Shown: positions 124 through 27,500 of the stretch, one piece after another
Layout of the letters: each line of letters starts with the position of its first letter
Position numbering within the stretch: the stretch's first letter is position 1
DNA from: Chromera velia
Taxonomy: Eukaryota > Sar > Chromeraceae
Length of the DNA: 41,416 bases
Reading direction: 5' to 3'
Assembly: GCA_018398765.1 (NCBI GenBank)
Contig: JAHBMJ010000750.1
Coordinates: forward strand, 1 to 41,416
Notes under the pieces: generated by a model
The model's input: only the letters and a program-made list of their open reading frames with translations
The model's database searches: none
Told to the model about the DNA's origin: nothing
Program-made: the position numbers and the translations under genes

Positions 124-159
<36 letters not shown>

Positions 160-1294
160 TAGAGAGAGAGAGAGACACACACGTACTTACTTACACTTAC
201 ACTTACACGCATGGACGGACGGGAGAGGGAATGTGAAAGATGGAGAGCGCCAGAGAGATGGAGAGATACAGAAAGAAGCAGGAGCGCAAACTGACTGACA
301 CGTGGAGGAAAAGGAAGCAGAGAGCCCAGCAGAAGGGCCCACGACGACGACCGGACCCAAAGCCTGACAACACAAGTTCAGGCCAGCACAAGGAATGCCG
401 CCGGCCGGAGAGGAAGGGCGAGAAAAGTCCCCAACAACCACTCAGAAGCCGCGATGTACGTCTCCCTCCTCCATTCTGTCCCTGCAACCGTGCAGAAAAA
501 GAAAGGGCGGCAGGGACAAGGGAAGAGAGCAACAAAAAGGCGCAAATGAATTAATGCAAATGATAAACAATTCAGCAGAAGGAAACGATTCTCTTCTTCT
601 ATTGCGTCCTAGTGATGTCCACCGGCTATCCGGCTTGATTTCTTTCCTTCGACAAAGGGGAATGAGTGCATGGGTTGGGAGGAACAGCACACAAGTAAAA
701 GCAACACCAGTCCGTTCGTCAGTCACGCCTCTAGCCCTTCCTCTCTCTCTTTCTGCTACTTCCTTTCTGTCTTTCCCTCCCTCCTGTTTTCTTCTTTCCT
801 TCCTTTATTCCTATTTTCTTCTTTCCTTTTTTCCTTCCATTCTTTGCTTCCTTCCTTCCCTTCGTTCCTTTCTCTTTCTTTCTTTCTTTCTTTCCTTCCT
901 TCCTTCCTTCCTTCTTCTTCGTTCGTTCATTTTTTTCTTTCTTTCCTTGTTTGTCTTACTTGCGTTCACTTGTCGGCTTTCTTTTTTCTTCTTCTTCTTC
1001 TTCTCTTTGTTTTCCGTTAACTTTTCATCTCTGGGAACGAAGCAAGAAAGCTGGAAAGCTGTTAATCTGAACCTGAAGATATCAAGGGAACTACACCCCA
1101 AGCATCTTCACCATTCACCGCTTCATCTCTCGCATGAAACCGCACCACCACTCCCCAGACCCACAGATGTGACTACACACAAAAGGGGGCAGGGGCGCGA
1201 CGGAGACACTCTCGAGCGATCGAAGGACAGACGTGACGGCCACGGGAGAGTACTTGTCAACAGCATAAACTCTCAGAGACAACCCGCAGTTTCC
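8..1294. repeat. satellite unit 1 (1287 bp)
   Basis: The CA tract ends in a GAGA run (about 122-176). The unit lacks the 36-bp insertion found in units 3 to 6, and it carries the pyrimidine tract at about 740-1010. Confidence 0.9.
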
Positions 1295-2569
1295 TGTGAA
1301 GGAAAACTCGATCCCCTTTGGGGTTCAGATCAGCTTTTCCTCCCTTCATGCTTCAGAATCCCCCTCCTCGCTTCTGTCCTTCTCTTCTGCCGACTTCCTT
1401 CTCACCGCCGTCCACACATACACACACACACAGAGAGAGAGAGAGACACACACACACACGTACTTACTTACACTTACACTTACACGCACGGATGGACGGG
1501 AGACGGAATGTGAAAGATGGAGAGCGCCAGAGAGATGGAGAGATACAGAAAGAAGCAGGAGCGCAAACTGACTGACTCGCGGAGGAAAAGGAAGCAGAGA
1601 GCCCAGCAGAAGGGCCCACGGCGACGACCGGACCCAAAGCCTGACAAGACAAGTTCAGGCCCGCACAAAGAATGCCGCCGGCCGGAGAGGAAGGGCGAGA
1701 AAAGTCCCCAACAACCACTCAGAAGCCGCGATGCACGTCTCCCTCCTCCATTCTGTCCCTGCAACCGTGCAGAAAAAGAAAGGGCAGCAGGGACAAGGGA
1801 AGAGAGCAACAAAAAGGCGCAAATGAATCAATGTAAATGATGAACAATTCAGCAGAAGGAAACGATTCTCTTCTTTTATTGCGTCCTAGTGATGTCCACC
1901 GGCTATCCGGCCTGATTTCTTTCCTTCGTCAAAGGGGAATGAGTGCATGGGTTGGGAGGAACAGCACACAAGTAAAAGCAACACCAGTCCGTACGTCAGT
2001 CACGCCTCTAGCCCTTCCTCTCTCTCTTTCTGCTACTTCCTTTCTGTCTTTCCCTCCCTCCTGTTTTCTTCTTTCCTTTCTTCATTCCTATTTTCTTTTT
2101 CCCTTTTTTCCTTCCATTCTTTGCTTCCTTCCTTCCCTTTGTTCCTTTCTCTTTCTTTCTTTCTTTCTTTCCTTCCTTCCTTCCTTCCTTCCTTCTTCTT
2201 CGTTCGTTCGTTTTTTTCTTTCTTTCCTTGTTTGTCTTACTTGCGTTCACTGGTCGGCTTTCTTTTTTTTTCTTCTTCTCTTTGTTTTCCGTTAACTCTT
2301 CATCTCTAGGAACGAAGCAAGAAAGCTGGAAAGCTGTGAATCTGAACCTGAAGACATCAAGGGAACTACACCCCAAGCGTCTTCACCATTCACCGCTTCA
2401 TCTCTCGCACGAAACCGCACCACCGCTCCCCAGACCCACAGATGTGACTACACACAAAAGGGGGCAGGGGCGTGATGGAGACACTCTCGAGCGATCGAAA
2501 GACAGACGTGACGGCCACGGGAGAGTACTTGTCCACAGCGTAAACTCTCAGAGACAACCCGCGGTTTCC
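1295..2569. repeat. satellite unit 2 (1275 bp)
   Basis: It has a short CA tract with a GAGA tail, lacks the 36-bp insertion, and is the shortest full unit. Confidence 0.9.
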
Positions 2570-3898
2570 TGTGAAGGAAAAATCGATCCACTTTGGGGTT
2601 CGGATCAGCTTTTCCTGCCTTTGGGCTTCAGAATCCCCCTCCTCGCTTCTGTCCTTCTCTTCTGCCGACTTCTTTCTCACCGCCGTCCACACACACACAC
2701 ACACATACACACACACAAACACAAACACAAACGTACTTACTTACTTATACTTACACTTACACGCGCGGGCGGACGGGAGAAGGAATGTGAAAGATGGAGA
2801 GCGCCAGAGAGATGGAGAGATACAGAAAGAAGCAGGAGCGCAAACTGACTGACACGCAGAGGAAAAGGAAGCAGAGAGCCCAGCAGAAGGGCCCACGACG
2901 ACGACCGGACCCAAAGCTTGACAACACAAGTTCAGGCCAGCACAAGGAATGCCGCCGGCCGGAGAGGAAGGGCGAAAAAAGTCCCCAACAACCATTCAGA
3001 AGTCGCGATGCACGTCTCTCTCCTCCATTCTGTCCCTGCAACCGTGCAGAAAAAGAAAGGGCAGCAGGGACAAGGGAAGAGAGCAACAAAAAGGCGCAAA
3101 TGAATCAATGCAAATGATGAACAATTCAGCAGAAGGAAACGAAACTTGAAGTCTCAGGACGAGTCAATCAAAACAAAATTCTCTTCTTCTATTACGTCCT
3201 AGTGATGTCCACCGGCTATCCGGCCTGATTTCTTTCCTTCGTCAAAGGGGAATGAGTGCATGGGTTGGGAGGAACAGCACACAAGCAAAAGCAACACCAG
3301 TCCGTACGTCAGTCACGCCTCTAGCCCTTCCTCTCTCTCTTTCTGCTACTTCCTTTCTGTCTTTCCCTCCCTCCTGTTTTCTTCTTTCCTTTCTTCATTC
3401 CTATTTTCTTTTTCCCTTTTTTCCTTCCATTCTTTGCTTCCTTCCTTCCCTTCGTTCCTTTCTCTTTCTTTCTTTCTTTCTTTCTTTCCTTCCTTCCTTC
3501 CTTCCTTCCTTCCTTCTTCTTCGTTCGTTCGTTTTTTTCTTTCTTTCCTTGTTTGTCTTACTTGCGTTCACTTGTCGGCTTTCTTTTTTTCTTCTTCTTC
3601 TTCTTCTCTTTGTTTTCCGTTAACTCTTCATCTCTGGGAACGAAGCAAAAAAGCTGGAAAGCTGTGAATCTGAACCTGAAGACATCAAGGGAACTACACC
3701 CCAAGCGTCTTCACCATTCACCGCTTCATCTCTCACACGAAACCGCACCACCACTCCCCAGACCCACAGATGTGACTACACACAAAAGGGGGCAAGGGCG
3801 CGATGGAGACACTCTCGAGCGATCGAAGGACAGACGTGACGGCCACGGGAGAGGTACTTGTCAACAGCGTAAACTCTCAGAGACAACCCGCGGTTTTC
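2570..3898. repeat. satellite unit 3 (1329 bp)
   Basis: The CA tract ends in AAACAC repeats instead of GAGA. This is the first unit to carry the 36-bp insertion, at about 3143-3178. Confidence 0.9.
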
Positions 3899-5189
3899 TG
3901 TGAAGGAAAAATCGATCCCCTTTGGGGTTCAGATCAGCTTTTCCTCCCTTTGTGCTTCAAAATCCCCCTCCTCACTTCTGTCCTTCTCTTCTGCCGACTT
4001 CTTTCTCACCGCCGTCCACACACACACACACACACAAACACAAACACAAACGTACTTACTTACTTACACTTACACTTACACGCACGGGCGGACGGGAGAG
4101 GGAATGTGAAAGATGGAGAGCGCCAAAGAGATGGAGAGATACAGAAAGAAGCAGGAGCGCAAACTGACTGACACGCCGAGGAAAAGGAAGCAGAGAGCCC
4201 AGCAGAAGGGCCCACGACGACGACCGGACCCAAAGCCTGACAACACAAGTTCAGGCCCGCACAAGGAATGCCGCCGGCCGGAGAGGAAGGGCGAGAAAAG
4301 TCCCCAACAACCACTCAGAAGCCGCGATGCACGTCTCCCTCCTCCATTCTGTCCCTGCAACCGTGCAGAAAAAGAAAGGGCGGCAGAGACAAGGGAAGAG
4401 AGCAACAAAAAGGCGTAAATGAATCAATGCAAATGATGAACAATTCAGCAGAAGGAAACGAAACTTGAAGTCTCAGGACGAGTCAATCAAAACAAAATTC
4501 TCTTCTTCTATTGTGTCCTAGTGATGTCCACCGGCTATCCGGCCTGATTTCTTTCCTTCGACAAAGGGGAATGAGTGGGTTGGGAGGAACAGCACACAAG
4601 CAAAAGCAACACCAGTCTGTACGTCAGTCATGCCTCTAGCCCTTCCTCTCTCTTTCTGCTACTTCTTTTCTGTCTTTCCCTCCCTCCTGTTTTCTTCTTT
4701 CCTTCCTTTATTCCTGTTTTCTTCTTCCCTTTTTTCCTTCCATTCTTTGCTTCCTTCCTTTTTCTTTCTTTCTTTCTTTCTTTCTTTCCTTCCTTCCTTC
4801 CTTCCTTCTTCTTCGTTCGTTCGTTTTTTTCTTTCTTTCCTTGTTTGTCTTACTTGCGTTCACTGGTCGGCTTTCTTTTTTCTTCTTCTTCTTCTTCTCT
4901 TTGTTTTCCGTTAACTCTTCATCTCTGGGAACGAAGCAAGAAAGCTGGAAAGCTGTGAATCTGAACCTGAAGACATCAAGGGAACTACACCCCAAGCGTC
5001 TTCACCATTCACCGCTTCATCTCTCGCACGAAACCGTACCACCACTCCCCAGACCCACAGATGTGACTACACACAAAAGGGGGCAGGGGCGCGACGGAGA
5101 CACTCTCGAGCGATCGAAGGACAGACGTGACGGCCACGGGAGAGGTACTTGTCAACAGCGTAAACTCTCAGAGACAACCCGTGGTTTCC
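3899..5189. repeat. satellite unit 4 (1291 bp)
   Basis: The CA tract has the AAACAC tail. The 36-bp insertion is at about 4462-4497. A 4-bp loss after GAATGAGTG near 4574 and a shortened pyrimidine tract account for its smaller size. Confidence 0.9.
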
Positions 5190-5306
5190 TGTGAAGGAAA
5201 ACTCGATCCCCTTTGGGGTTCAGATCAGCTTTTCCTCCCTTTGTGCTTCGGAATCCCCCTCCTCGCTTCTGTCCTTCTCTTCTGCCGACTTCTTTCTCAC
5301 CGCCGT

Positions 5307-5339
<33 letters not shown>

Positions 5340-6509
5340 GAGAGAGAGAGAGAGACACACACACGTACTTACTTACACTTACACTTACACGCACGGATGG
5401 ACGGGAGAGGGAATGTGAAAGACTGAGAGCGCCAGAGAGATGGAGAGATACAGAAAGAAGCAAGAGCGCAAACTGACTGATACGCCGAGGAAAAGGAAGC
5501 AGAGAGCCCAGCAGAAGGGCCCACGACGACGACCGGACCCAAAGCCTAAAAAGACAAGTTCAGGCCAGCACAAGGAATGCCGCCGGCCGGAGAGGAAGGG
5601 CGAGAAAAGTCCCCAACAACCACTCAGAAGTCGCGATGTACGTCTCCCTCCTCCATTCTGTCCCTGCAACCGTGCAGAAAAAGAAAGGGCGGCAGGGACA
5701 AGGGAAGAGAGCAATAAAAAGGCGCAAATGAATCAATGCAAATGATGAACAATTTAGCAGAAGGAAACGAAACTTGAAGTCTCAGGACGAGTCAATCAAA
5801 ACAAAATTCTCTTCTTCTATTGCGTCCTAGTGATGTCTACCGGCTATCTGGCCTGATTTCTTTCCTTCGTCAAAGGGGAATGAGTAGGTTGGGAGGAACA
5901 GCACACAAGTAAAAGCAACACCAGTCCGTTCGTCAGTCACGCCTCTAGCCCTTCCTCTCTCTCTTTCTGCTACTTCCTTTCTGTCTTTCCCTCCCTCCTG
6001 TTTTCTTCTTTCCTTCCTTTATTCCTATTTTCTTCTTTCCTTTTTTCCTTCCATTCTTTGCTTCCTTCCTTCCCTTCGTTCCTTTCTCTTTCTTTCTTTC
6101 CTTCCTTCCTTCCTTCCTTCCTTCCTTCTTCTTCGTTCGTTCGTTTTTTTCTTTCTTTCCTTGTTTGTCTTACTTGCGTTCACTTGTCGGCTTTCTTTTT
6201 TTTTTCTTCTTCTTTTTCTCTTTATTTTCTGTTAACTCTTCATCTCTGGAAACGAAGCAAGAAAGCTGGAAAGCTGTTAATCTGAACCTGAAGACATCAA
6301 GAGAACTACACCCCAAGCGTCTTCACCATTCACCGCTTCATCTCTCGCACGAAACCGCACCACCACTCCCCAGACCCACAGATGTGACTACACACAAAAG
6401 GGGGCAGGGGCGCGACGGAGACATTCTCGAGCGATCGAAGGACAGACGTGACGGCCACGGGAGAGTACTTGTCAACAACATAAACTCTCAGAGACAACCC
6501 GCGGTTTCC
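5190..6509. repeat. satellite unit 5 (1320 bp)
   Basis: The CA tract has the GAGA tail, as in units 1 and 2, but the unit also has the 36-bp insertion (about 5771-5806) of units 3, 4 and 6. It is a mosaic of the two variant classes. The + strand ATG of the recurrent small ORF is lost near 5422. Confidence 0.9.
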
Positions 6510-6629
6510 TGTGAAGGAAAAATCGATCCCCTTTGGGGTTCAGATCAGCTTTTCCTCCCTTCATGCTTCAGAATCCCCCTCCTCGCTTCTGTCCTTCTCT
6601 TCTGCCGACTTCCTTCTCACCGCCGTCCA

Positions 6630-6667
<38 letters not shown>

Positions 6668-7839
6668 AACACAAACGTACTTACTTACACTTACACTTAC
6701 ACTTATACGCACGGACGGACGGGAGAGGGAATGTGAAAGATGGAGAGCGCCAGAGAGATGGAGAGATACAGAAAGAAGCAGGAGCGCAAACCGACTGACT
6801 CGTGGAGGAAAAGGAAGCAGAGAGCCCAGCAGAAGGGCCCACGACGACGACCGGACCCAAAACCTGACAAGACAAGTTCAGACCCGCACAAGGAATGCCG
6901 CCGGCCGGAGAGAAAGGGCGAGAAAAGTCCCCAACAACCACTCAGAAGCCGCGATGCACGTCTCCCTCCTCCATTCTGTCCCTGCAACCGTGCAGAAAAA
7001 GAAAGGGCGGCAGGGATAAGGGAAGAGAGCAACAAAAAGACGCAAATGAATCAATGCAAATGATGAACAATTCAGCAGAAGGAAACGAAACTTGAAGTCT
7101 CAGGACGAGTCAATCAAAACAAAATTCTCTTCTTCTATTGCGTCCTAGTGATGTCCACCGGCTATCCGGCCTGATTTCTTTCCTTCGACAAAGGGGAATG
7201 AGTGCATGGGTTGGGAGGAACAGCACACAAGCAAAAGCAACACCAGTCCGTACGTCAGTCACGCCTCTAGCCCTTCCTCTCTCTCTTTCTGCTACTTCCT
7301 TTCTGTCTTTCCTTCCCTCCCGTTTTCTTCTTTCCTTTCTTCATTCCTATTTTCTTCTTCCCCTTTTTCCTTCCATTCTTTGCTTCCTTTCTTCCCTTCG
7401 TTCCTTTCTCTTTCTTTCTTTCTTTCTTTCTTTCTTTCCTTTCTTCCTTCCTTCCTTCCTTCCTTCTTCGTTCGTTCGTTTCTTTTTTTCCTTTCCTTGT
7501 TTGTCTTACTTGCGTTCACTTGTCGGCTTTCTTTTTTTTTTCTTCTTCTCTTTGTTTTCCGTTAACTCTTCATCTCTGGGAACGAAGCAAGAAAGCTGGA
7601 AATCTGTGAATCTGAACTTGAAGACATCAAGGGAACTACACCCCAAGCGTCTTCACCATTCACCGCTTCATCTCTCGCACGAAACCGCACCACCACTCCC
7701 CAGACCCACAGATGTGACTACACACAAAAGGGGGCAGGGGCGCGACGGAGACACTCTCGAGCGATCGAAAGACAGACGTGACGGCCACGGGAGAGTACTT
7801 GTCCACAGCGTAAACCCTCAGAGACAACCCGCGGTTTCC
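6510..7839. repeat. satellite unit 6 (1330 bp)
   Basis: It has the AAACAC-type tail and the 36-bp insertion at about 7089-7124. It is the longest unit. Confidence 0.9.
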
Positions 7840-8255
7840 TGTGAAGGAAAAATCGATCCCATTGCCTCCTTTTTTTCTTCCTTCTCTCCTTCCGTCCGTC
7901 CGTCCGTCCTTGCTGTCATCCCTTCTATCCTTTCCTCCCTTCTTTCCATTCTCTTTCGTTCTTTTTTTCTTTGTTTCTCTCTTTCTCTTTTTCTTTTTTC
8001 CTTTCTTTCTTTCGTTCTTTCTTTCTTTCCTAGTGATGACACACACACACACACACACATAAACACACCCTTGCTTACATAAACGGATGGACGCACGGAC
8101 GGACGGGAGAGGGAAAGATATGGAGAGGGCTAAAGAGATGGAGAGATACAGAACGAAGCAGGAGCGCAAACTGACTGACACGCAGAGGAAAAGCAGGCAG
8201 AGAGCCCAGCAGAAGGGCCCACGACGACGACCGGACCCAAAGCCGGGGAGGAAGT
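7840..8255. repeat. broken terminal satellite unit
   Basis: The first 22 bp match the other units. The sequence is then replaced by an unrelated pyrimidine tract with TCCG repeats (about 7862-8035). It rejoins unit sequence at a CA tract near 8040 and follows the unit to about 8242, where homology stops within the ORF region. This marks the right boundary of the array. Confidence 0.8.
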
Positions 8256-9106
8256 TGAGGCCCTTGACATGTCAAAAAATCGATGTCACGGTTTGTGGAT
8301 CGGACTGATTACTGAGAACGTCGTCTGTGACAGTGATCATATCAATTGTATAGACATCAACATATGCGGGATGTTATGTGATTTGTTGTTGTAGAGAATC
8401 GTTGTGCCATGATCTGACAGTCAATGACAGTCATGTCAGATCAATCGCTAATCGATCTGACATCGTTGTCGATTCGTCAGCGCTGCTGGCAGGACAACAA
8501 CAAAAAGATACAAAAAGTTCAGATGCAGGCATGGAAACCGCCGGGGCCGCGCGGGCGCGGTCGCGGGTGTAGGAGAGCGCGGCGCGGCGTCCCCCGCCCC
8601 CCGGACCCAGCGAGGCGCGGCGCCGTGCAGGCCCCATTTTCTGGAGACGCCAAATTGCCAGCCTATATACCATGCCTATGCCATGCATGCAGCCTCAGCA
8701 TGCCTCAGCTGGCTAACCAAATCTTCAGCAATGTGATGCCCTTATATATGATGCCCTTGCACATCTCTCCATCATCAAGTCAGTCATTGATCTTCAGCCC
8801 GTTTGCATATCGGGTCTCAGCTGGTTTCTCAGCAGAAAAGCGAAGTGTATATCGTTCTTTCAGATCCTCCGCAGAGTCATCGTAAGAAGTGAGCACGGAA
8901 GCAGGATAAACGCTTTCGCGCAGAAGAAGTCGCCTCTTTTAAAAACTACCCTCGGATCTGCAACAGAGTCTGGGGTGTCCCCTCTTTCTCGCAGGGAGGG
9001 AATCTGCATTCCAGGCCCTCTTTGTGTGTTTCATCTAATACTATCCATCTCCTTGGGGTGAAAAATCGACACAGTGTTTCACACTGTTTTTTCCCTCCAC
9101 GGTGAA
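8256..9106. other. spacer and probable 5' region of the FHA-FKBP gene
   Basis: No convincing coding sequence is seen. The stretch holds a short inverted repeat (8411-8442), an extremely GC-rich patch (about 8534-8640) in otherwise moderate sequence, and a CATGC-rich stretch. It should contain the promoter and 5' UTR of the gene starting at 9107. No specific promoter motif could be assigned. Confidence 0.5.
8411..8442. repeat. 9-bp inverted repeat (hairpin)
   Basis: GATCTGACA at 8411-8419 is the reverse complement of TGTCAGATC at 8434-8442, leaving a 14-nt loop that itself contains GACAGTCA-like repeats. Function is unknown. Confidence 0.6.
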
Positions 9107-11945
9107 ATGGCGTCTGTAGAGCATCCGGGCGAAGTTTCGTCCGCAAAGTCTCGGGGAGAGCTCTCTGCTTCAGAGGTTTTGTTGGGCGAAACAGCAGTGG
9201 TTATTTTGGAGGCTTTAAATACAGGAAAGAAACTTGTGCTGCCTGTTTCTGAGTTGTATCAAGGGGAAAAGACAGTTGGAAGACGACAAGACAATGATTT
9301 CATGCTCAGTGCGGAACACATTTCGTGTCTTCACTGTAAATTTCAGTGGACTGTCGACGAACGAGTGAGTGGGACAGGAGATGTGCTGAGAAACTTGGAG
9401 CTGTTGTTGATCGATGAATCGTCCAATGGGACTTTCGTGGACAACAACCGCATCCCCAAAGGCAAACCTGTTCGCCTCGGAGATGGGCAGACTGTCTCCT
9501 TCGCAAAACAGAAGTGTTTCGACGATGGTCAGTTGGGAGATGAGGGAAGGAATTCCGAACAAGATGTCTCTTTGTGTTTGTTCATCTCTTGTTCGCTGTC
9601 GTTTCTTCCTTGCAACTCCCATTCTGCGTACTTCTGTACTGTTGCGTGCGTACAGGAGGGAACTGTGACCCCATCCGAGTCCACGTCAAAGTCCAAAGAT
9701 TCGCCACGCCCCTCCCTCCCGACAACGTGAGTGAGTTCGTCGTCAACGCCCCATCCCCAATGCATCTCGGAGGCCCAGGGGGGTTCCTAGGTGCACCCTC
9801 GGCGGCATCAGCAGCAGCTTCTGGTAGTTTGGTGACTTCTACCGAACGAGGCAAGTCCCTTAGGCCTGGTGGGTTGGGAATCTTTTTTTTAATCATCCCA
9901 GAAACACTACAGTCTGACGGTGTTGGGTTTTTCTTTTCAGCCCTTCTCCTTGCGGTGAAAGGGCTCTTCATGTCGGCATTTGGTCACTACCTCTCTTCTT
10001 TTTCTGTGGATTCGCACATGCGTTCAATCGGCGGGTCATTTTTGCTTCCGCAACGCGCCTTCCTTGCCGGGCTTGCTTTTGTCAAAAGAGTGAAGTCTAG
10101 CTGACGCTGAAGGAAGTGAAGTCTAGCTGAAAGTGGAGAAGTGTCTTCGATCAGAAAGAGAAGCTGAGTCGACAAAACGTGTTTCTTTATTTTTCTTCAC
10201 CTTCGATTGATTGAAGTGGTGTCTTGGGATCCGTTTCGACCCGAAACAAATCTTCTCACTCTCTCGTTACCCTTCTCCTTGCGTTCAGAATGTTCTTTCT
10301 AGAGGCTCTTCATGGTTGCGCTGGCAAACCGTTCTCTCTTCTCCTTTTTCTGTGCATTCAGACATGCGTTCAGCGGGTTCATTTCGCATCCCCCTTTTAT
10401 CTGACTTGCCCCTCTTTCCGTCAAAGGAGCCCTCTCCATTTCTGTAAGTATGCATGATTAGTTCACTCCACTGTTGCTCTGCTTGTACTGCAGTCAACAA
10501 CAGAGAACCGACACCGCGCAAGTCGTTGAAGAAGAAACGGCAGCAAAGAGAAAGAGAAAGGTCGGCCGAAGATGTCAGGCGACTGAGAGCAGACAGAAGA
10601 ACGGCAGTGAGTGTATTAATTTTCTGGTGAATCGATCAAAATGATCCGTTTACAGTTGTTTCAGCCTTCCTAGTGAACCTTCAGCTGCCTTCTTGTGCCC
10701 ACATATCGATGAGTGGCTCCTCGGTCCATTCTTTTCTCCAGTTGCGTCGTCTTGATTGTTGCCGAGATAACATGAATGTGCATGTCCGTCTGTTCGTTTC
10801 CTGTCAGTTGCGGTCATGGAGAAGAGGCAAAGGAGCTCGGGCTTGAACAGGCTGCGTTTGAAAAGCAGATGGCAGAGAACCCAGATGACAGCCGGTTCAT
10901 CTCAAACGACCAGACTACAGAAGGACACGCACGTGGGTGGTCTCCCCCTGTTCTTCCTTCTGTGTTTCTCTTATTTAGTCTCCCTACGTCCCTCTCGCCC
11001 CCTCAGCCTTCATGCTGATCCTCATTCACGCCTTCCCGGACTTCCCTGAATTCGTCTGATCCTCAAACGACCCACCCACTCTGGGGAAAAGCCCGCAAAC
11101 TTTTTCCTGTGGATGTCCACTGATTCTGTCTTCCCTCAGCGGGACGGCTGGAAGGAACTCAAAGAGAAGAGAAGAGAAGAGAAGAGAAGAGAAGGAATTA
11201 AGGGACTTGATGCAGTGTTAGGCAAATCTGTCTCGTCTTCTCTTCTTTCCTCTGGCCCCATTTCTCTTCTTTGTCTGCCCTTTCAGTTCATATTGGCTGA
11301 AGGAGTGATGGAATGAGTGAATCAAGGGTACTGCTCCAATTCTGAACAAAATGGAAGGAAAGGCACCAAAAGCTCCGCGTGTTTTCTGCCCTCTACCTGC
11401 CTCGGATCTGCTCCCTTCTTGAATTCCTCAATTGTATGACGGAAGATGTGGAGTTCCTGCCTTTCTTTGGTTTTCTCGTTCCCCTCTTTCTCCCCTGCAA
11501 TATTCGTCTTCTGATGGATGCACACTCGCACACACGACCGTACGACTGCAGCCGTGGAGGAAGACGATGAGGAGGGCTCGGAGGAGCCTCACTCTGACAG
11601 CCTGAAGCCGGAAGAGCGAGACGATCACGAGATGGACCATCCCCTCGAGCAGCGAGAGCATGAGGAGGAGGAGACTTACGACATCTGTGGGGACGGGACT
11701 GTGATGAAGACAGTGCTCGTCAAGGGAACCGTCGCCGAGAGCCCCTCGGTCGACCAAGAAGTGACTGTGAACTATGTCGGGAGGCTGAGAGACATACAAG
11801 GTGGGCTGATCTTTGTTCCTCTTTATTCTTTAGATGCATCAGCACGGAGTCAGGCAGAAGGGAAGAACCAAACGAGCATGGACAGACACAGACACTTTGT
11901 CTCAGTTTCTGTACTTGCATTTGCTCTCCCTTGGCTCTCAGATTT

Positions 11946-12013
<68 letters not shown>

Positions 12014-12441
12014 TTTTGTGGTTGATTTCTTTGTAGAACCATGGATGAGGCAGGCACACATAGCCACTCTGGGATACGCTGCTGCTACCTTTTCGTTTTT
12101 CCCCCCTGAGATTTTTGCAGTGCTTTGCTTTGTTCCTACATGTCTGTCCCTCTTTTCCGCCTGTCTGACTGTGACTGTGACTGTGACCAGACTGACCACT
12201 TCTTTTTCCATCGGATTGTAGTGTACAGAGCGAATCAATCCTAGAAGCTTTTTGTGATGCGTGACTGCTTACGCTTCCCTTCCCTCCTCTGCAGAAGAAT
12301 TCGATCGGAACGACGGGTTCACCTTCAAACTCGGAAGCGGCGTCATTCAGGGCTGGTCTGACTGCGTGGCAACAATGAGGAGAGGTGAGTGGGCAACAGA
12401 GTCTTTCAATGGAGGGTTTATTCGGGTTGCTTATCTCTTTT

Positions 12442-12480
<39 letters not shown>

Positions 12481-14246
12481 GTGCAAGGAGTGTGGGGTGT
12501 ATGGGTTCCTGAGAAGAGAGGGGGATGGATGAAGGGAGCTGAGAAACATGACAGACAGGATGGTGGGTCGTGGCAGCCACCTGTGCTCTTTTGTCTTCTC
12601 TCCTCTTCCTTTGAGCGTGATTTGCTTACTTGCTCGAGACAGCGATGCGAGAATCCCATAGCACCCTCTATCTCTCTCTCTCTCTCTTTGGCTACCCTGG
12701 TGGAACAGTCTGGTGGCTGATCATTTGGCCGTGCTTCTCCCTTCTTTTCCCTGAGAACAAGACATCCCTTTCGTTGCCTTTCGGTGTCTTTGTGTGTGCA
12801 GGTGAGAAGTGTCGAGTCATCCTGGCACCCGGGAAGGCTTACGGTGCGAGGGGCGCAGGAGACAAAATCCCTCCCAACTGCACATTGGAGGTACTTGTGT
12901 TTCTGTGCACCTGTCTCGTGTGTCTCTGTGCACCTGTCTGGTGTGTTTCTGTGCACCTGTCTGGTGTGTTTCTGTGTACCTGTCTTGTATGTTTCTGTGT
13001 ACCTGTCTAGTGTGTCTCTGTGTACCTGTCTTGTGTGTTTCTGTGCACCTGTCTTGTGTGTTTCTGTGCACCTGTCTTGTGTGTTTCTGTGCACCTGTTT
13101 TGTGCGTTTCTGTCAACCGGCCAACCTGTCTGTGTCTCGTCTCTGTTCGTCGCTCTCAGCGGGTCTGCTTTTTTCTGTCGGGTTTGTGGGAAGTGGTGAA
13201 AACTCGTCTTTCTCTCCGTCTTCAATCCATCCGCCTACTCTCTTCAATCCATCCGCCTACTCTCTCCTGATTCGAAAAGATGGAGTGCGTCTCTTGACTC
13301 ATCCATCTACGGCACACGTACACTTTGCTTACACGGAAAAAAACAAAGTACATACGGAAGTGTACACGAGTAGTCCCCTGTCTGTCTGTCTGGATAATGC
13401 AGTTTGAGATTGAGTTGGTCTCTTGGATCAACGAGGAGGACATGTCTCCTAACCTCGACGGGTCGCTGCTGATGATGAAGACGAAGGCCGGAGAAGGATG
13501 GCAACATCCTAGAGATCTATCTCGCGTGAAGCTCCAGTATGTGATGAAGGTGAGAGAAGGACAGGAAGGAGGAGAGGAGCAGACGACGACCATCAGGGAC
13601 ACCTACGCTGGTCGGTCTGCTCAATCTGTCTGTCTGTCCACGCGAGGGAGGAGTGACTCTTCCATGCATTCAATCGGGCATTCCGGTAAACTCTTTTTGG
13701 AAGTGAACACACAGTCTCTGCATCTGTAGGTGCATGCATGCTTTTGCGTCCGTACTAATGAACTTCATGTTTATGAATTCTCTACATCATGTCCTGTCTG
13801 CATTGCAGAAGGCGCTCCCCACGAGTTTGTCCTTGATGATGCTGACGACTTGCCGATCGCTGGCTTCGATTGCGTAGTGCGTCGGATGAAGAAGGGCCAA
13901 GAGGGAGATCTGATCATTGCAGGGGATTCCGAGTTTGCCTTCCGGTCGGGTGACGAACATTTCGGGAAGGACGTCTCTCTGTCTACCCGAGACTGCGCAG
14001 GTGGTGGTGGGGACCTCGAGGACTTCGGTGATGAAGACGGCACGCTCTCTGCAGGTCTGTCTATCTGTCTATCTTCTGTTTGTCGGGGGGAAGGGGTAGA
14101 GGGAGACCTTCTTCTCTCTCTTCTATCTGTCTGGCGCCATCGGCATGGAGCTCTGGTACTCTTCCACTGTCAGTGACAGCGCGCCAAAAGAAAGAAAGAA
14201 ACGGAGAGAGAGAGAGGGAGAGAGAGAGAGAGGGAGAGAGAGAGAG

Positions 14247-14281
<35 letters not shown>

Positions 14282-16277
14282 AAAAAGGAAAGGAAAAAGG
14301 AAAGGAAAGGAAAGGAAAGGAAAGAAAGGAAAGAGAGAAAGAAAGGAAAGAAAAGAAAGAGAAAAGAGAGAGAGAGAAAGAAAGAAAGTAAGTAAGAAAG
14401 CAAGGAACGGAAGCTCATCCATTATCACAATCAGTGAAAAAGAAAGAAAGGAAGAAAATAAAAAAAGAAGAAGAAAATCATATAGTCTGTCTGTGAGAAA
14501 ACCAATCGATGCTTCCGGTCGTGCGCATCGCAATTTTTTGTCTTAATGGAAGAGAATGGTTGTTTTGTGTGTGTAGATGTATGTGTGTGTGTGTGTGTCG
14601 CAGCTCTGGAAAAAAATAAGTACGCCAAGAAGGCCCAGAGAGTGCAGCTCGGGCGCTCTCATCTGAACAAAATCCTTTCGAGGGAGGAAATTCTGAAGCA
14701 GGTGGAGGCGGCGGCAGAAGCCAACGGGATCATACTACCTCATCGTCTCGAGCTGCTGGATGACAGAATTCTCTCTCAGCCCCCCCCCGGACATGTGGTT
14801 GTGATGAAGCAAACAGGCTCGGAGTCCGAAGAAACTGAGTTCTTCTACATGCCCCTCCAATTGCCTCCAACGCGTCTGCTGAACACTGCCACTGGGATTG
14901 GGACTTCGCACTCATTGACAAAGATACCAATCCATGCAAAGCATGTCGAGAGTGGCAAGGTGGGCCGGGTGTGAATGGAGAAAGGGTTTTCAAGGGTGTG
15001 GAAACAGACAGACAGACAGACAGGCAGACTTGTGCGGGCCTTTGTGTTTTGTCTTCACGCTTGATCTATCTGTTTTTCCCCTGTCCTTGCCTTGTCTCTC
15101 TATCATCTCGTTGCGGGGCAAGCACGTAAGCAGAAAGGCATGAGAGCGGTTAATGCGGTTATATTCTGGCGTCGTTGGCTGCCTGGCCCTGAACGCGCAT
15201 GCTTCTTTTCTCTCTTCTGGCTGTTTTTGCATACGTTCAACCCTTTGCAGAACGACGCATGAATGCCCGTTCGTTCCTCTTCTCTCCTCTCCTCTCCTCG
15301 CAAAGACTGATGGATCGATGCATGGTGTAACGAGACTCATGTTCACCGTCGCAGTGATTTTCTTTTCGCCGCCACTCTTCGCTTGCAGATTCGTGTGTTC
15401 TCGTCTGTGCGGGTCTGTGCTGACGCTCTCAACATCAACCCGGGAACGATCAGTAGAGCACTGCAGTGCAAGGTTGGCCCGGGGGGGCAAACCAATATGA
15501 CAGGCGGCTGGCAGTTCAACAAGCTGACAGACATACCAGAGGGGATCCCCGTGGGCTGTGAGATAGAAGAGAGAAAGAAGGCTCACTGCCTGTCTTCTGA
15601 GGTTGGTTTCCTGTGAGTCTTTTTTCTCTCCCTGTTCTATCTTGGTTGCCTCCTTCTTTTTTCCTTTCGTTTCGTGACTGCTGTCGTCGTTGTGGTTGTC
15701 TTTCCGTGTTGTGCTGCAATTTGAGTATGCTGCTTTTTGTAGTCACCTCCTTCCTTCGGCCTGACTGCGTGCCGGTACACGTCTGCTCAATTTATTTGCG
15801 GCTCCTTTCCGGCCTGTTCTCTTCTTTCCTTCCTTGTCTGTCTGGCTGTCTGTCTGTCTGTTTGTCTGTCTGTTTGTTTATCTTTCTGTCTGTCTGTCTG
15901 TTTGTCTGTCTGTTTGTCTATCTATCTTTCTGTCTGTCTGTCTGTTTGTCTGTCTGTTTGTCTGTCTGTCTGTTTGTCTGTCTGTCCGAAAGAAAGGAAG
16001 CAATTTGGAAAAAGTGTAGTGAAGAAACGACGATATAGTCTGTCTGTGTGTGTCTCTGTCCATCTGTCCGCAGGATCCGACAGAGAAGGGTATCGGCACT
16101 TTTTCTCGCACGAACTCGACTGGGGCTGATAGAAGGAGAATGTGCATGGGGGGGGATGTCAGAGTTGGCGACGACGAAGGGGGGAGTGCATATGACGGCG
16201 GTGGGAGGGCACCTGATAGGGAATCCTGCAGACGTTCCCTCGAGCCTCCGCAAGTGTCTTCTGAAGGGGCTCTGTGA
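9107..16277 (+). CDS. FHA - FKBP (x2) - NUMOD1-like HTH fusion protein, 12 exons
   Basis: Model: 9107-9527, 9656-9850, 10494-10606, 10827-10932, 11552-11800, 12295-12384, 12802-12890, 13403-13610, 13809-14054, 14604-14959, 15389-15601, 16074-16277; 829 residues. Residues 35-140 are an FHA phosphothreonine-binding domain (GRR 58-60, S73 and H76, SSNGT 105-109). Residues 206-243 are strongly basic and 280-320 acidic. Residues 319-428 are an FKBP domain with every classic pocket residue: Y353, F364-D365, F372, V378-I379, W382, Y405, I414, F422. It should be an active peptidyl-prolyl isomerase. Residues 430-560 look like a second FKBP with a degraded pocket (GF in place of GW). Residues 692-735 (ADALNINPGTISRAL, later GWQF) resemble the NUMOD1 DNA-binding helix-turn-helix. 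The ATG has a good context (GAAATGG). Intron 2 is GC-AG. The acceptor of exon 4 (10826) is weak and was chosen by phase. An alternative end is a donor at 15613 with exon 12 read to 16689. A nuclear role is inferred. Confidence 0.8.
9851..10493 (+). other. GC-AG intron of the FHA-FKBP gene
   Basis: The donor reads GAG|GCAAGT, the strong consensus typical of GC-AG introns, and the acceptor is TGTACTGCAG. Joining keeps the frame. The intron contains an old internal duplication of about 329 bp: CCCTTCTCCTTGCG recurs at 9941 and 10270, and the ACATGCGTTCA region follows in both copies. Confidence 0.65.
11160..11198. repeat. GAGAA microsatellite
   Basis: Perfect five-base repeat in intron 4 of the FHA-FKBP gene, just after an unused pyrimidine-CAG site. 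Confidence 0.9.
11949..12012. repeat. compound (CT)n(GT)n microsatellite
   Basis: About 30 bp of CT followed by about 30 bp of GT in intron 5 of the FHA-FKBP gene. Confidence 0.95.
12441..12479. repeat. (GT)n microsatellite
   Basis: GT run in intron 6 of the FHA-FKBP gene, about 56 nt after the donor. Confidence 0.95.
12896..13112. repeat. 21-bp minisatellite, about 10 copies
   Basis: Units of the form TGTGTTTCTGTGCACCTGTCT start only a few bases inside intron 7, right after the donor at 12891. The unit length is a multiple of three and lacks stops in several frames, so retained transcripts would read through it. Copies differ at a few positions (CGTG/TGTG, GCAC/GTAC). Confidence 0.9.
14193..14400. 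repeat. GA/GAAA purine tract
   Basis: Almost pure purine on the + strand, about 200 bp, inside intron 9 (14055-14603) of the FHA-FKBP gene. It gives false lysine/arginine/glutamate ORFs. Confidence 0.9.
14582..14598. repeat. (GT)n acting as acceptor tract
   Basis: This GT run directly precedes the acceptor TCGCAG (ending 14603) of exon 10, in the place of a pyrimidine tract. Confidence 0.8.
15834..15987. repeat. CTGT/TTGT microsatellite
   Basis: About 150 bp of CTGT-type repeats in intron 11 of the FHA-FKBP gene, upstream of the acceptor at 16073. Confidence 0.9.
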
Positions 16278-19401: not shown

Positions 19402-21704
19402 TCAAAGTCCTTTTTGCACAAATACTTTTCCCTCTTTCAGAACACACCCCTGCTCTGCCATGCTCCTTTCTGCTTTCTCTTCGAGACGGCTTTCGTCTGC
19501 GTCCAGTCCGCAGTCATTTGCACAGGAAAAGAAAAGCACAGATCCCCATTCTCCTTCAAACAGCCCTTTCCAACCGGTAGAAACGGAAGACTCCGAGAAG
19601 GATGCCGAGAGACCCAGTGCCTTCGCAGCATTCGAAAACAAGGAGGGCATCAACTGTGCCTCAAATAACATGGACTCTCCGCAAAATTCACACCTTGACT
19701 CCTCTTGTCTGATTTTTTCAGTCTGTGCAGAATAGCGCACAGAAGAGCCAGTGGCGATCCTCTCTCGATTTTTCTGACTCGTCCTTGTGTCTTCTCCTTC
19801 GCATTTCTCTGTTGATTGAATTTCCTTCCCCGTGCCCCCCACCTTCTCTCCACCTGCGTGACCTTCCATCCCACCCTTACCAACAGCGGGTCTGTCAGAG
19901 GAATCTATGGGGGGTTTCTGCCTCTGGGCGTTGGAGGAAGATGATGCAGAGGCAGATCCTGCCTGACCGACCGATCCTTCATTTCCGATATTAAGGAGCC
20001 GAACTGACCCCGGAACCACTTTGTCTCTACCAACAAAGAGAGGGGGTCCACCGAACTCATACCGCAAGACCTCCTCTGGTAAAAGACGCGCACGGCGAAC
20101 GAGGCGGGACAGCATCCGATCCTCCGCACCACTCCCTTCGTAGCCCTCCTCACCCCACTCCCCCTTCCTCGCCTCTCCATTTCCCCCCTGCTCATCAAAT
20201 AAATCCACCGGGTCGCCTCCCTCTCCCTGCTGCTGTCTCTGTCTGTACTCTTCCAACAACTCCCGCGCTCTCAATGCGATCGGGTCGTCACTTTCGTCCT
20301 CCTCTTCATCCTCTTCCTCTTCTTCCTCCTCGAAGGCTGTCTTGAAACTGCCACCCGAAAAAAAATCAGTGGACGGCAATGCCTTTTCAGGAATGCCGGG
20401 GCCAATACACAAGCGAAACACAGGTAGACATTCTAACTGCGCATCTTTCCCGCCCTCCCTTACAAAATTCGGTTTCCCCTTTTCCTTTTTCTTCTCTCCC
20501 TTGCCGCCCTGACTCTCCTCCCTCAAACGTGTCTGTGGATTTCCTTCTATTGTCTCATTCACCACTTGCGAAGAAGAAGACGAAGAGGACGGCTTGGCTG
20601 CAGATGCAACCTCTCTCTTCCCCTTTGACCCTTTTTCCTTTTCTTCTTCTTCTTCTTCTTCTTTCGATTGAAAACCTTCAAGCGAATCGTCTCGCAACTT
20701 CAGCAGACGGGAAAGCTCCAGGTCCACACCACCCCCCTCTCTCGTTTCTGAATCACCCCCCCACACAGCAGGATCAATCCCCGTCTCCATTCCCATACCA
20801 GCAGAAGACCCAAAAAGAGAGCCAGCCTGAGGCTCCGCAACGGAACCAAAACCAAAGACAGACCCCGCTCCCCAGTCATCAAAAGGTACACTGCCTGCCT
20901 CCATGGCGGCCTTGCCCTCACCCTCTCCGCCTCCCTTCTCGCCCCATGGATCATGGGATTCAACAGCGGAGCTTCCGAAGAGCTGCACACTCACCGTTTC
21001 TTCCCCAAATCCCCCTCCTCCTCCTAAAACTGCGCCCCCGTCTCCTTCTGCCCCGTCTCCCTTTCCCTCCGCTGAGGCCGATGTTGTCGGTTGTTTTGGG
21101 TTTTTCTCGATGATCGCCCTGGGGCGGAGAGGGAAGAGGAGACGGACGAGACGCCAGTTTTGGGGGTCCAGGGCGCCCACACCTTCACGGAAGCACGAGA
21201 AGGCCGCGAGGACACGCCGGAACGAAGACGTGTACGTTGACTCTGCCTGCAATGAAGGGGCGGAGGGAGGGGCCAGATAGACGACGACAGAGATGAATGA
21301 AATGGTTTCTTTCGTCCAACAAGATACGTGCATGCAAAACCGAACGAGCAGGTGCTGTGCAAGGATAAGTAAGTGTCTACGCACAAGAAAGAACACATGG
21401 CTCCTCACTCCAGCTTCCGTGTGGTTCCGTGTTACGATAGCAAGAACTTAAATGCTGCAGCCAGATATTGACGAACCTGAAAAACTAAGTGAAGTGGCTT
21501 CTTGCAGAGCGTGCAGAGAGGGAGGTTAGACAAAAAGGCCTGAACCTCTTTGCACTCTTCAAACCCACTGAGGAACCCTCCGAATTTGCACACTGAAATC
21601 GCCCTCTCGAGGGCCCCCTCCCTGTCCTTAGGGCCTTCACCCCCATCTCCAGAAAGAGAAGCCCCCGCAGCCCCTGACTTCACCAAGCTACCAGTAAACG
21701 CCAT
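19402..21704 (-). CDS. PDCD2: PDCD2/TSR4-like protein, 2 exons
   Basis: Exon 1 is 21704-21477 and exon 2 is 21246-19402, giving 690 residues. The intron (21476-21247, GTTCGT...TTGCAG) joins in phase 0. The N-terminal part has the zinc pair CTLC followed by KPLHLVFQ (residues about 62-76), then SSFRRVLAAFSC across the junction, as in the PDCD2 N-terminal domain. The C-terminal PDCD2_C domain shows EEVLRYEFGGPPL, CEFCGESMLFEAQLMPSLF (from about 595), the tryptophan-glycine stretch EGEWGSVLFFSC and CANDC (about 651). PDCD2 and yeast Tsr4 chaperone ribosomal protein uS5 (RPS2) for 40S assembly, so the same role is likely. Between the domains lies about 450 residues of low-complexity sequence with poly-Glu and poly-Ser runs, making the protein nearly twice the usual length. 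The ATG context (CGTATGG) is good. Confidence 0.85.
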
Positions 21705-22478: not shown

Positions 22479-24178
22479 ATGAGTGGCAGTGGGAGACGAG
22501 AGCTTCTGTGGGAGAAGCCGGGGATGGGGGGAGAGCCCAGCGAAAAATATTGTTTGGGCGATAATGTTGAGCTGAACGTTCCAGAAGGTTGTCAAGACAG
22601 ATGGCTTGCGCGTCTCGTGGGCACAAATGCTCAGAACGTCGACTCAGGGGAGGGGGGGGGTGGGGAATTTCAGTTGCTTTTTCAGTGGTACTACACCTTT
22701 GACGACCTTATGGAAACGTTAGAGAGTGAGGAGGATCGGCGGAAGCATCGGTGGCTGTCTCCGTTTATGGGGGCAAAGGAGAGGATTGTCGTGGAAAGTC
22801 ACAAGGACTATCAAATGCCCGACGTTATCAAATGCAGGGCCACGATTCTTCCCTATGAAGAATGGGTAAAGAAAAATGCCGCACCGCGGAAAACTGAAAA
22901 CTTCTACCGTCTGACTTTCGATGGTGAATCTCACGAGGGGTTCAAAGAGCCTCTTCCCTGTGAGGTTTATGGAAGGCTCACAGACGGGGGACCAATCGAA
23001 CTTCTCCCACGAAACCCCGACGATGTCATGCACCGGTGTGAGATTGATGGCGTCTCCGTGGTTTACCACCCGTCTCTCCTTTCGAGGAGTCGTCCTTCCA
23101 TTCGATCCCATGACAAGGTCAAGAAAAAGCCCTGGCCGAGTTACGAAGACACCAAAACCGGGACTCCTGCCGATCTTATTCAGGAATTCCGTCGGTTGAT
23201 GAACGTCAATCAGGGGGCTGCCGGTGTGGAGGGCAGTGGGGGTAGGTCGGGCAAAGGTGGTTCTGCGCCGTTGGCCCGTACTGGCCCTGGCGCTTCTTCC
23301 TCATCTTCCTCATCTCTGTTTCCCCGGAGAATCAAACCGACAATTGCACAAAGAAACGCGCACCGACAGGGCTCCATGGATGCCTTTGTGGCAGAGGCGG
23401 AGGCGGTAACCCTGGTTGAGCAGGAGAGCACGAACCCCGACAGGTTGAGGTTGAGACGTGCTTTGTTCGGCGCTCTGGTGCACCTCTTGGAGATCGCATC
23501 TGAGGAGATGAAGATGGACGGCGAGAGGGTGCAAGTGACCAACGTCGAGGTCAGTCAGACACTCAGACAGATAGGCAGGCAGGCAGACAGACAGACGGAC
23601 AGACAGACAGACAGACAGCCAGCCAGACAAACACACAGACAGACAGACAGACAGACAGACAAGACAGACAGACAGACAGACAAGACAGACAGACAGACAG
23701 ACAGACAGACACGGGGACATAGACAGACAGACATCTACAGATATACATACAGACAGACAGACAGACCAGATAGACAGACACACAGACCAGACAGACAGAC
23801 GGACGGACAGACTTACATGCAGACAGGCAGATAGGCAGACAGACAAGACATACAGGCGGACGGACAGACAGGCAGACATATAGGCAGACAGACAGACAGA
23901 CAGACAGGCGCACGGACAGGCAGACAGACAGACAGACACACAGACAGACACACAAACAGACACACAAACAGACAGACAGAGAGACAGACAGGCAGACAGA
24001 AAGAAGGAAGGAAGGAAAGACAGAAAGAAAGAAAGAAAGACAGAAGGGAAGAAAGAAAGAAAGAAAGAAAGACAGAAGGGAAGAAAGAAAGAAAAAAAGA
24101 AAGGAAGGAAGGAAGAGAGGAAGAAAGAAAGAAAGAAAGAAAGAAAAGACAAGAAAGAATGCCAACAGATAGACAGAC

Positions 24179-24209
<31 letters not shown>

Positions 24210-24471
24210 GAGAGAGAGAGAGAGAGAGAGAAGAGAGAGGAAAAAAGAGGAAAAAGAAAGAAAGAAAGAAAGAAAGAGAAGAGAAAAGAAAAAAAAGGGG
24301 GGGGGAGAAAGGAAGGAAGGAAGGAAGAAACGGCAGATAAACAAGAGAACGGACGAAGAAAACAAGCAAAGACAGACAGACAGACAGACACGGGGACATA
24401 GACAGACAGAAATCTACAGATACACATACAGACAGACGGACAGACAGACAGACAGACAAGACAGACAGTCG

Positions 24472-24511
<40 letters not shown>

Positions 24512-27500
24512 CACAGACAGACAGACAGACATATAGGCAGACAGACAGACAGACGGACAGACTTACAGGCAGACAGGCAGATAATGAGACAGACAAGACA
24601 TACAGGCGGACGGACAGACAGGCAGACATATAGGCAGACAGGCGCACGGACAGGCAGACAGACAGACAGACACACAAACAGACACACAAACAGACAGATA
24701 GAGAGACAGACAGGCAGACAGAAAGAAGGAAGGAAGGAAAGACAGAAAGAAAGAAAGAAAGAAAGACAGACAGAAGGGAAGAAAGAAAGAAAAAAAGAAA
24801 GGAAGGAAGGAAGAGAGGAAGGAAGGAAGGAAGGAAGGAAGAAAGAAAGAAAAGAAAGAAAGAAAAGACAAGAAAGAATGCCAACAGATAGACAGACAGA
24901 CAGACAAGAGAATGAAAAAACAAAGAACAAATGAAAGAAAGAAAGATCGAAAGACAGACCCACCGACTGGATGAAAAAAAGAGGGGGGGGAATGGAGGAA
25001 GAAAGAAAGATTTCTGTCTCCTTCCATTCGTAACCGTCACTCAATCACTTCTATGACATCTCTTTTTTCTCCTCCCACCTCACCGTTCCGCCCCTTTCCT
25101 TTCATTGTTTGTCTTAGCTGATCCGTCAAGGCATCAACCTCCATTCGCACTCATTCGTTTTCTGTTTTGTTGTTTTTCGACCTTCCTTTCTCTCTCTCTG
25201 TTCCCCCCCCCCCCTTTGCAGGAGTTTGCCCTAGGTGCCGAGCACGCCGTGTACTCCCATTTCAAGAAGATGGACAAGCAAGAGTACGCAAGTCGAATCC
25301 AGATCATCACCAAAAATCTGAGGGGCAAAGAGAGGACAAGTCCAAACCACGAAGGCGAGGGGGGATATGCAGAAGTTCACCACGATATTTCTTTTGCGAA
25401 GAGAGTCATCAAGGGACTCTTCTCTCAACAGGACTTCGCAACGGCGGACACAATTGTCTGTCTGTCCTGACCTTTCTCCTGCCCCCCCCTGTGTGTTGTT
25501 CATTGGACATGTCTGCCCGTCTGTCTGTCTGTCTGTTTGTCTGTCTGCCCGTCTGTGTGTGTGTGTGTGTGTGTCTGTCTGTCTGTCTGTTCCTCTTTTT
25601 CCGACCTTCCTCCCCCCCTTCAACACTTCTGGGCAACAAATTCACAAGAGAGAAAAATGTGAACACGCGAGAAATGCACACGACAGACATTGTATTGCTG
25701 CATTGGGGAAACAGAACATCACCCACGTGATCGGAAAATGTATGCAGGCAGGCAGAGAGAAGGGCAGAGGAGAGAACGGCTCTCCTGTGTGTGCATGCAT
25801 GCATCTGGCTGAATGAAGGCAAGCAGACAGACAGACAGACAGACACTCAGACAGAAATGAAGCGGTGCCTTTCCTCCCTCAGAATTTTCATTCAGACTGC
25901 CAGCTCACACGCACTGGCAGAAGGCAAACAGAGAAAGAGAGGGAGGAGAGAGTCGATGCTCAGAGGCAAAACGTCCACTCGGGTACGTCCTTCCCATGTT
26001 GCATGACCGACAATCATTGCACAAGCTGACTGTCTGTCTGTCTGTCTGCAGGCAATGGGAACGGATGAGGACTTACGATTCCGCAGAGAGCAGCAGGAGC
26101 GCCACTTGAAGGATATCGTCATTCACGAAGATTCCAATGCAAACACGGGACCCCGCCTGGTGAAGACCCACAAGGGGGATCACTACGTCGGCGTGGAGGG
26201 GGAGGAGGTGGGCATTGCGGCCTTGCTGGGGGGGAAGTCCAAGTCCCCTGCCGTGAAGCCAGCGAAGAAGCCCCTGGGAGTGGACCCATCCCAGCCACAG
26301 ATGGGTCTAGGACTAGGTCTAGGTCTAGGTCTGCCAGAGACTGAGAAGGAGAGAGAAAGAGAGAAGAAACGAATAAGGCAAACCGACCACAGTCCCACAG
26401 AAAGTGACGGCCCGTGGCACCAGTCACCAACAGAAAGTGAAACCGGTCGAATGGCCCCCCCCAGGGGATTGACCCTCACTTCCTCTTCCTCTTCTGCCGC
26501 TGCCACCACCTCCCTTCTCGTCCCTTCGGATGAGATGGGAGGAAGAGCTCAACACGATGAGATGGAGAGGAGACAGCAGAAAAGACCGAAACCCTCCGCC
26601 ATCACTACTACGCAAAATCGACACAGTCTTTTAGAACCCCCCCACACGCACCTAGATGCTGGAGTCGATAATCCCGACTCCCTCATGGGTCACGGTCTCA
26701 GTCCCTACGACGAAGAACAGAGAGACATGGACGTGTCGATGGAAGATCCCGCTGCCGAGACGGCGGCTTTCGCACGCGACAACAGGAGGAGGATCGAGTC
26801 TCAGTCTCCCACCAAGGCCCATGCTGGCCAGGGGGCCCTCAGCAGATCCCCCCTCCCCCCCGCCGCGACGTCCACGGAGGTCGAGTACGAGTTTTACGAT
26901 GAGGATGAAGACGACGATATGGAGGTGCCCCTCGCAGGTGAGGGTGACGATGGTTCCGTCTCTTCCCATATGGGCGGGGGGGGGAGCGAGGAGGGCATGG
27001 GCGACGGGGACGAACCTGCAATTGAGGGGGGAGGGGCGGCCGCGGCGTCGGCAGGCACTTCTGCCCATGGGGGGGGGGGGCAGTTTGGGATGTTGGATGC
27101 GTTTGAGATAGTCGCAGGAGACGAGGGTATTGCCATGGTGGGCACCGCTGCTGACAAACAGTACGAGACAAAGTTGGCAGCCTTCCTGGAGATTCCCCCC
27201 CAGGCCGAGGGGGGGGGGTCTCTCCGTAGCGCTACGGGTCTTTTGGGGTCGTTCCCTCACCGAGCGATGGGACGGTCTCTTACGACTCTGAGGCTGGAGT
27301 CGCTCAGGATGCTTTGTCCGGATATCTCTCAGAGGTTGGTGGACATGGAGGGCTGCCAGGTAGCTCGTGGTCTGATGAAAGCAGAGGTGCCTTTCCTTTC
27401 AATTTTTCTGGAAGTGGACAGACACTCTGAAGGGCATCTGCATGTTGTGTCTGACACATGATCCAAGTACAATGAACGTCGCTTTCCCTCCAATGAAGCT

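Follow-up and report, generated by a model that had tools for sequence, protein, structure and literature searches.

What would it mean for a phosphothreonine reader, a prolyl isomerase core and a DNA-binding module to be encoded side by side in one reading frame? The question is raised by a locus of Chromera velia on contig JAHBMJ010000750.1 (C749), which we analyzed in its entirety (41,416 bases, 0 N, from a genome of 177.8 Mb; hereafter the window). Twelve exons at 9107-16277 on the forward strand join in frame down to the last stop, and the initial annotation read them as a single fusion of an FHA domain, an FKBP and a NUMOD1-like helix-turn-helix. Each of these domains is supported and in-frame joins exist, but a single protein is not thereby proven. 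The reading that we tentatively favor, with somewhat less than even confidence, is that the locus holds a young chimeric gene, in which an FKBP block was copied between an FHA part and a unit made of a conserved region, X, and the NUMOD1-like module, giving a DNA-anchored FKBP that is possibly guided by phosphothreonine.

Three splice choices between exons 3 and 4 keep the frame, with products of 829 (model A), 842 (model B) and 820 amino acids (model C), and a model omitting exons 3 and 4 altogether is in frame to the same stop. Donors are GT throughout except at exon 2, and acceptors are AG. The features of the gene are as follows.

9107..9527, forward strand: exon 1, FHA domain (core 9272-9511), from Pfam, PDB and an FHA search in the genome itself
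9656..9850, forward strand: exon 2, with a GC donor (GAG/gcaagt), its junction with exon 3 being phase 1 on both sides
10494..10560, forward strand: exon 3, basic linker; donor ambiguous between 10560 (AAG/gtcggc), 10606 (GCA/gtgagt) and 10626 (CTG/gtgaat)
10808..10932, forward strand: exon 4; acceptor ambiguous between 10808, 10827 and 10869, with the copied block starting at 10825
10825..13975, forward strand: segment common to the window and the FK1-FK2-TPR gene on C257, introns included, from blastn and identity per exon and intron
11552..11800, forward strand: exon 5, acidic linker and start of FK1, with a counterpart on C257
12295..12384, forward strand: exon 6, FK1, from a PDB match and a C257 counterpart
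12802..12890, forward strand: exon 7, FK1, from a PDB match and a C257 counterpart
13403..13610, forward strand: exon 8, end of FK1 and start of FK2, from a PDB match, a C257 counterpart and the FK2 profile
13809..14054, forward strand: exon 9, FK2, differing from C257 past 13975, with its donor at 14054 (CAG/gtctgt), from the profile, the block edge and donor scoring
14604..14959, forward strand: exon 10, region X, with strand 1 of the NUMOD1-like module encoded by its last 12 codons, from paralogs on C700 and C1470; acceptor 14577 is an in-frame alternative
14924-15517, forward strand: NUMOD1-like module, from the end of exon 10 and exon 11
15389..15601, forward strand: exon 11, NUMOD1-like helix-turn-helix and GGWQF strand, from the profile, paralogs and fold
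16074..16277, forward strand: exon 12, C-terminal tail and TGA stop

The middle of this gene is shared with a second locus. Searching with the FKBP query, we found a locus on C257 that resembles the window exon by exon, and blastn aligned the two at 86% identity over 3203 alignment columns, introns included (exons 4-9). Identity was 88.8-97.2% across exons 4-8 and 86.9-93.8% across introns 4-8. The left edge of the block coincides with the opening bases of exon 4 as set in the twelve-exon model and the right edge falls inside exon 9; past the block, C257 continues into TPR repeats, for a layout of FK1-FK2-TPR. Because this is the standard layout of large immunophilins, C257 probably preserves the old arrangement and the window the copy, with the FKBP core as the piece that would have been captured recently. 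The initial annotation had singled out exons 3-5 and the 9/10 boundary as the points where two genes might come apart, and these were the right places to doubt, because both are edges of the segmental copy.

Upstream of the block, exon 1 encodes an FHA domain well above the Pfam cut-off (PF00498, E 1.2e-12, 48.5 bits vs 20.7), and it scored 53.5 bits in an FHA search of the genome. The FHA domain of Dun1 was its only PDB match at E<=0.001 (E 2.2e-5), and in that alignment VGRR, HISCLH (S73, H76) and SSNGT line up, bearing out the residues GRR, S73/H76 and SSNGT from which the domain had first been called. FHA domains bind phosphothreonine, which is contacted by the GR, S..H and N residues, and the window domain would be expected to do the same. 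Elsewhere in the genome, C2883 (locus L056, C2883:66500-74500) carries on its reverse strand, at about 2376-2713, a decayed, stop-containing version of the stretch from the end of exon 1 through intron 1 into exon 2.

Splice scoring of the two block edges covered 195 donor-acceptor pairs per junction, with junction 9/10 scored after excluding its own sites from the matrix. At 9/10 the four best of the 195 pairs are in frame, as are 11 of the 18 pairs with positive scores, and the join is supported. At 3/4 an in-frame pair first appears in fourth place (10560/10808), with 10606/10869 the next to keep the frame; the join can be made here, but no better than expected by chance. Exons 1-12 can thus be read as one product through in-frame joins, as first proposed, but junction 3/4 is ambiguous and the top-scoring splice pairs there lose the frame. 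Since the scoring favors 9/10 and not 3/4, the unity of FKBP, X and the NUMOD1-like module is better supported than the attachment of the FHA domain: the former three probably form one protein, while the chances that the FHA domain is joined to them are evenly balanced.

The locus could instead consist of neighbors misread as one gene, a possibility to which we give the same, somewhat less than even, confidence. An FHA gene would end soon after exon 3, and next to it would come an incomplete, TPR-less FKBP copy that either is joined to X and the NUMOD1-like module alone, with a start in exon 4, or lies stranded beside a separate X-NUMOD1-like gene. Several observations weigh for this arrangement and against the chimera. 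The shared block ends at both doubtful junctions, and at 3/4 the three best of the 195 pairs are out of frame, the frame survives in 7 of 30 positive-scoring pairs (not above the chance level) and the pair 10606 + 10808 runs into a stop at codon 256; against this, in-frame pairs are available at 3/4 and dominant at 9/10, where the gap from exon 9 to exon 10 is only 549 bases. The homology of exon 10 to C700 begins at the exon edge, but a start before exon 10 that kept the full X would read through a TG repeat. Decayed fragments also occur elsewhere, with FHA exons 1-2 on C2883 (stops) and the module plus X on C700 (a stop). For the coding part shared with C257, selection gives a mixed picture: its 62 differences in 909 bases include 0 frameshifts and 0 stops, and its FKBP profile fit is about as good as that of C257, but 0 stops has a probability of 0.12-0.34 under neutral change, exons are no better conserved than introns, and dN/dS is 0.48 (0.28-0.89).

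The block itself encodes two tandem FKBP domains, FK1 and FK2, so that the initial call of an FKBP was right in kind but counted one domain where there are two. Against a PF00254 cut-off of 21.1 bits FK1 scores 81.2 and FK2 26.4; FK2 is degenerate, covering profile positions 2-71 of 94. Wheat FKBP and FKBP52 are the best PDB matches of this part, and relative to both, the F36-D37 segment of FK1 is three residues short, which makes the earlier description of a complete FKBP pocket too strong. The same short loop is present in FK1 of C257, and under another alignment F-D of EEFDRN could occupy the F36-D37 place. FK1 retains, by alignment, equivalents of Y26, R42, F46, V55, I56, W59, Y82, I91 and F99, positions of the FKBP pocket. 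As an FKBP, the window copy is not visibly worse than that of C257. Pfam searches of the window product gave no TPR match at E<=1 and no match to a parvulin (PpiC/Rotamase) domain. Nor can the acidic linker be taken, as it had been, for the mark of a nuclear FKBP, because it lies within the copied block and is present in the C257 gene as well.

FKBPs turn or bind X-Pro bonds, and it is conceivable, if rather unlikely, that in a chimera of this kind the FKBP part does neither in a useful way, being a mere spacer or a dead binding surface while the FHA domain and the NUMOD1-like module act as a phospho-regulated DNA-binding factor. The short FK1 loop and truncated FK2 would fit such a protein, but FK1 keeps the pocket equivalents listed above and the short loop is also found in the TPR-bearing C257 gene. 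There is a precedent in TbPar42, an FHA-parvulin whose prolyl isomerase domain is described, in the excerpted text of the source, as without catalytic activity (PMC6468809).

At the C-terminus, the stretch ADALNINPGTISRAL...GGWQF forms a genuine NUMOD1-like module. The window copy falls below the Pfam cut-offs, reaching 17.6 of 27 bits for PF22083 (I-HmuI_NUMOD-like; E 0.0027) and 16.7 of 22.8 bits for NUMOD1 (E 0.0091 for the C-terminal part, 0.059 for the whole product), and for that reason we call it NUMOD1-like and rest the claim on paralogs and fold. Members of the family occupy 25 places in this genome at E<=0.01, the window counted, and some exceed the Pfam cut-offs; 17 of 20 members match one of two NUMOD models and 16 of 20 the other. 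The copy on C901, which matches the window module at E 6.6e-13, itself passes the Pfam cut-off, and its fold matches the DNA-binding C-terminal ends of I-HmuI and I-TevI. The C-terminal modules of these two enzymes bind DNA, and the window module may well do so too. The helix-turn-helix of the initial annotation, which had proposed a profile search as a check, therefore stands on its paralogs and fold, but with the window copy below both cut-offs. It is very improbable that the stretch resembles NUMOD1 only by chance and does not form a DNA-binding module: its sub-threshold scores and the lack of a PDB match by sequence would allow this, but the 25 genome places, the two matching NUMOD models and the fold argue strongly otherwise.

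The suggestion that the helix-turn-helix was captured from a mobile element may hold only in a remote sense: the module is one of the family's 25 places in this genome. No HNH, GIY-YIG or LAGLIDADG nuclease domain was found by Pfam in the window product, and the 13 distinct module-bearing frames that were scanned (unspliced, some truncated at the ends of loci) likewise yielded no report of one; scanning viral contigs with a single pattern did not confirm any relative. Region X has paralogs on C700 (52%, E 4.9e-18) and C1470 (45%, E 1.6e-12) and no Pfam match, and its structure model is of low confidence (pLDDT 52.7). These two paralogous loci (L043 on C700 and L044 on C1470) are fragmentary and combine a NUMOD1-like module, a weak AP2-like stretch and X, which on C1470 stands both before and after the module. 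The AP2 matches beside X, at 14.0 bits on C700 and 11.1 on C1470, are far under the cut-off of 33.3. AT-hook-like RGRP cores share open frames with NUMOD1-like modules in 5 of 18 frames, on C435 (L018), C3913 (L028), C569 (L031), C797 (L016) and C597 (L030).

How might the chimeric gene that we favor have arisen, and what might its product do? A stretch of roughly 3.2 kb that carries exons 4-9 of the large immunophilin gene on C257 would have been duplicated into a site between an FHA domain on its upstream side and a DNA-binding unit, X-NUMOD1-like, on its downstream side. If transcribed as one, the gene would encode FHA, a basic and then an acidic linker, FK1, FK2, X and the NUMOD1-like module, with the TPR lost. 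In a presumably nuclear setting, the NUMOD1-like module would anchor the protein at DNA, and the FHA domain, if joined, would recruit threonine-phosphorylated partners. FK1, either weakly active or able only to bind, would act on X-Pro bonds of those partners or serve as a docking surface. Overall, the protein would be a DNA-anchored scaffold that presents recruited phosphorylated partners to FK1.

Text searches of the literature gave no described protein with this order, as the initial annotation had stated. In the literature searched, which covered few subscription papers, we found no description of an FHA-FKBP fusion or of NUMOD1 with FKBP, whereas FHA-isomerase fusions are known with parvulins; the same architecture may occur unseen in other alveolates. 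TbPar42 is the closest functional parallel, having an N-terminal FHA domain, a linker and a prolyl isomerase domain that is inactive, and being proposed to act as a recruitment platform (PMC6468809, in excerpt). FHA-parvulins are reported from Toxoplasma (TgPar96) and kinetoplastids (PMC11357558, in excerpt). These Par42-type proteins (TbPar42, TcPar45, LmPar47 and the apicomplexan TgPar96) resemble the window in that a single protist protein combines an FHA domain with a prolyl isomerase, but their isomerase is a parvulin and the excerpts mention no DNA-binding module, whereas the window has tandem FKBPs and a NUMOD1-like end. With FKBP51, FKBP52 and the plant 70 kDa FKBPs the window shares the FK1-FK2 core, for which C257 is the sister copy with TPR; unlike them it lacks TPR and has gained FHA and X-NUMOD1-like ends. 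The module family shares a sequence profile and fold with the C-terminal domain of I-HmuI and with NUMOD1 of homing endonucleases, but the window gene contains introns and no nuclease domain was reported in its product or in the scanned paralog frames. ApiAP2 factors offer a possible parallel for the family, although the module itself is different: an endonuclease origin is cited for plant AP2, and a bacterial origin with a myzozoan expansion is proposed for alveolate AP2, in the excerpted text of PMC4501334.

The rest of the window holds other features. A tandem array of units of about 1.3 kb (136-8323; six copies 90-100% identical to the reference, grouped into one repeat family, and a weak seventh at 61%) ends about 800 bases upstream of the ATG of the gene; at this length the units lie beyond the 500-base maximum period set for the tandem-repeat search. 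Intron 7 contains a minisatellite with a 23-base unit in 9.5 copies (12896-13113). Downstream lie a PDCD2-like open frame on the reverse strand (19405-21447; PDCD2_C 45.4 bits vs a cut-off of 30) and a 1.2-kb CAGA array of about 300 copies with strong strand asymmetry (23552-24774). Rfam gave no match in the window.

Few transcription-factor families are known from the algal relatives of apicomplexans. In a broader scenario, which we regard only as a doubtful possibility, this lineage would have made a homing-endonuclease DNA-binding module into a nuclear DNA-binding family, now in 25 places and a second case of the kind seen with AP2. One member would then have been brought together with an FHA domain and the core of an immunophilin by a recent segmental copy, to give a DNA-anchored, phosphothreonine-directed FKBP. 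The locus may show a multidomain regulator in the middle of its assembly, with the donor gene and the block edges still readable, and in these algae NUMOD1-like modules may stand next to AP2 as a second set of DNA-binding domains derived from endonucleases.

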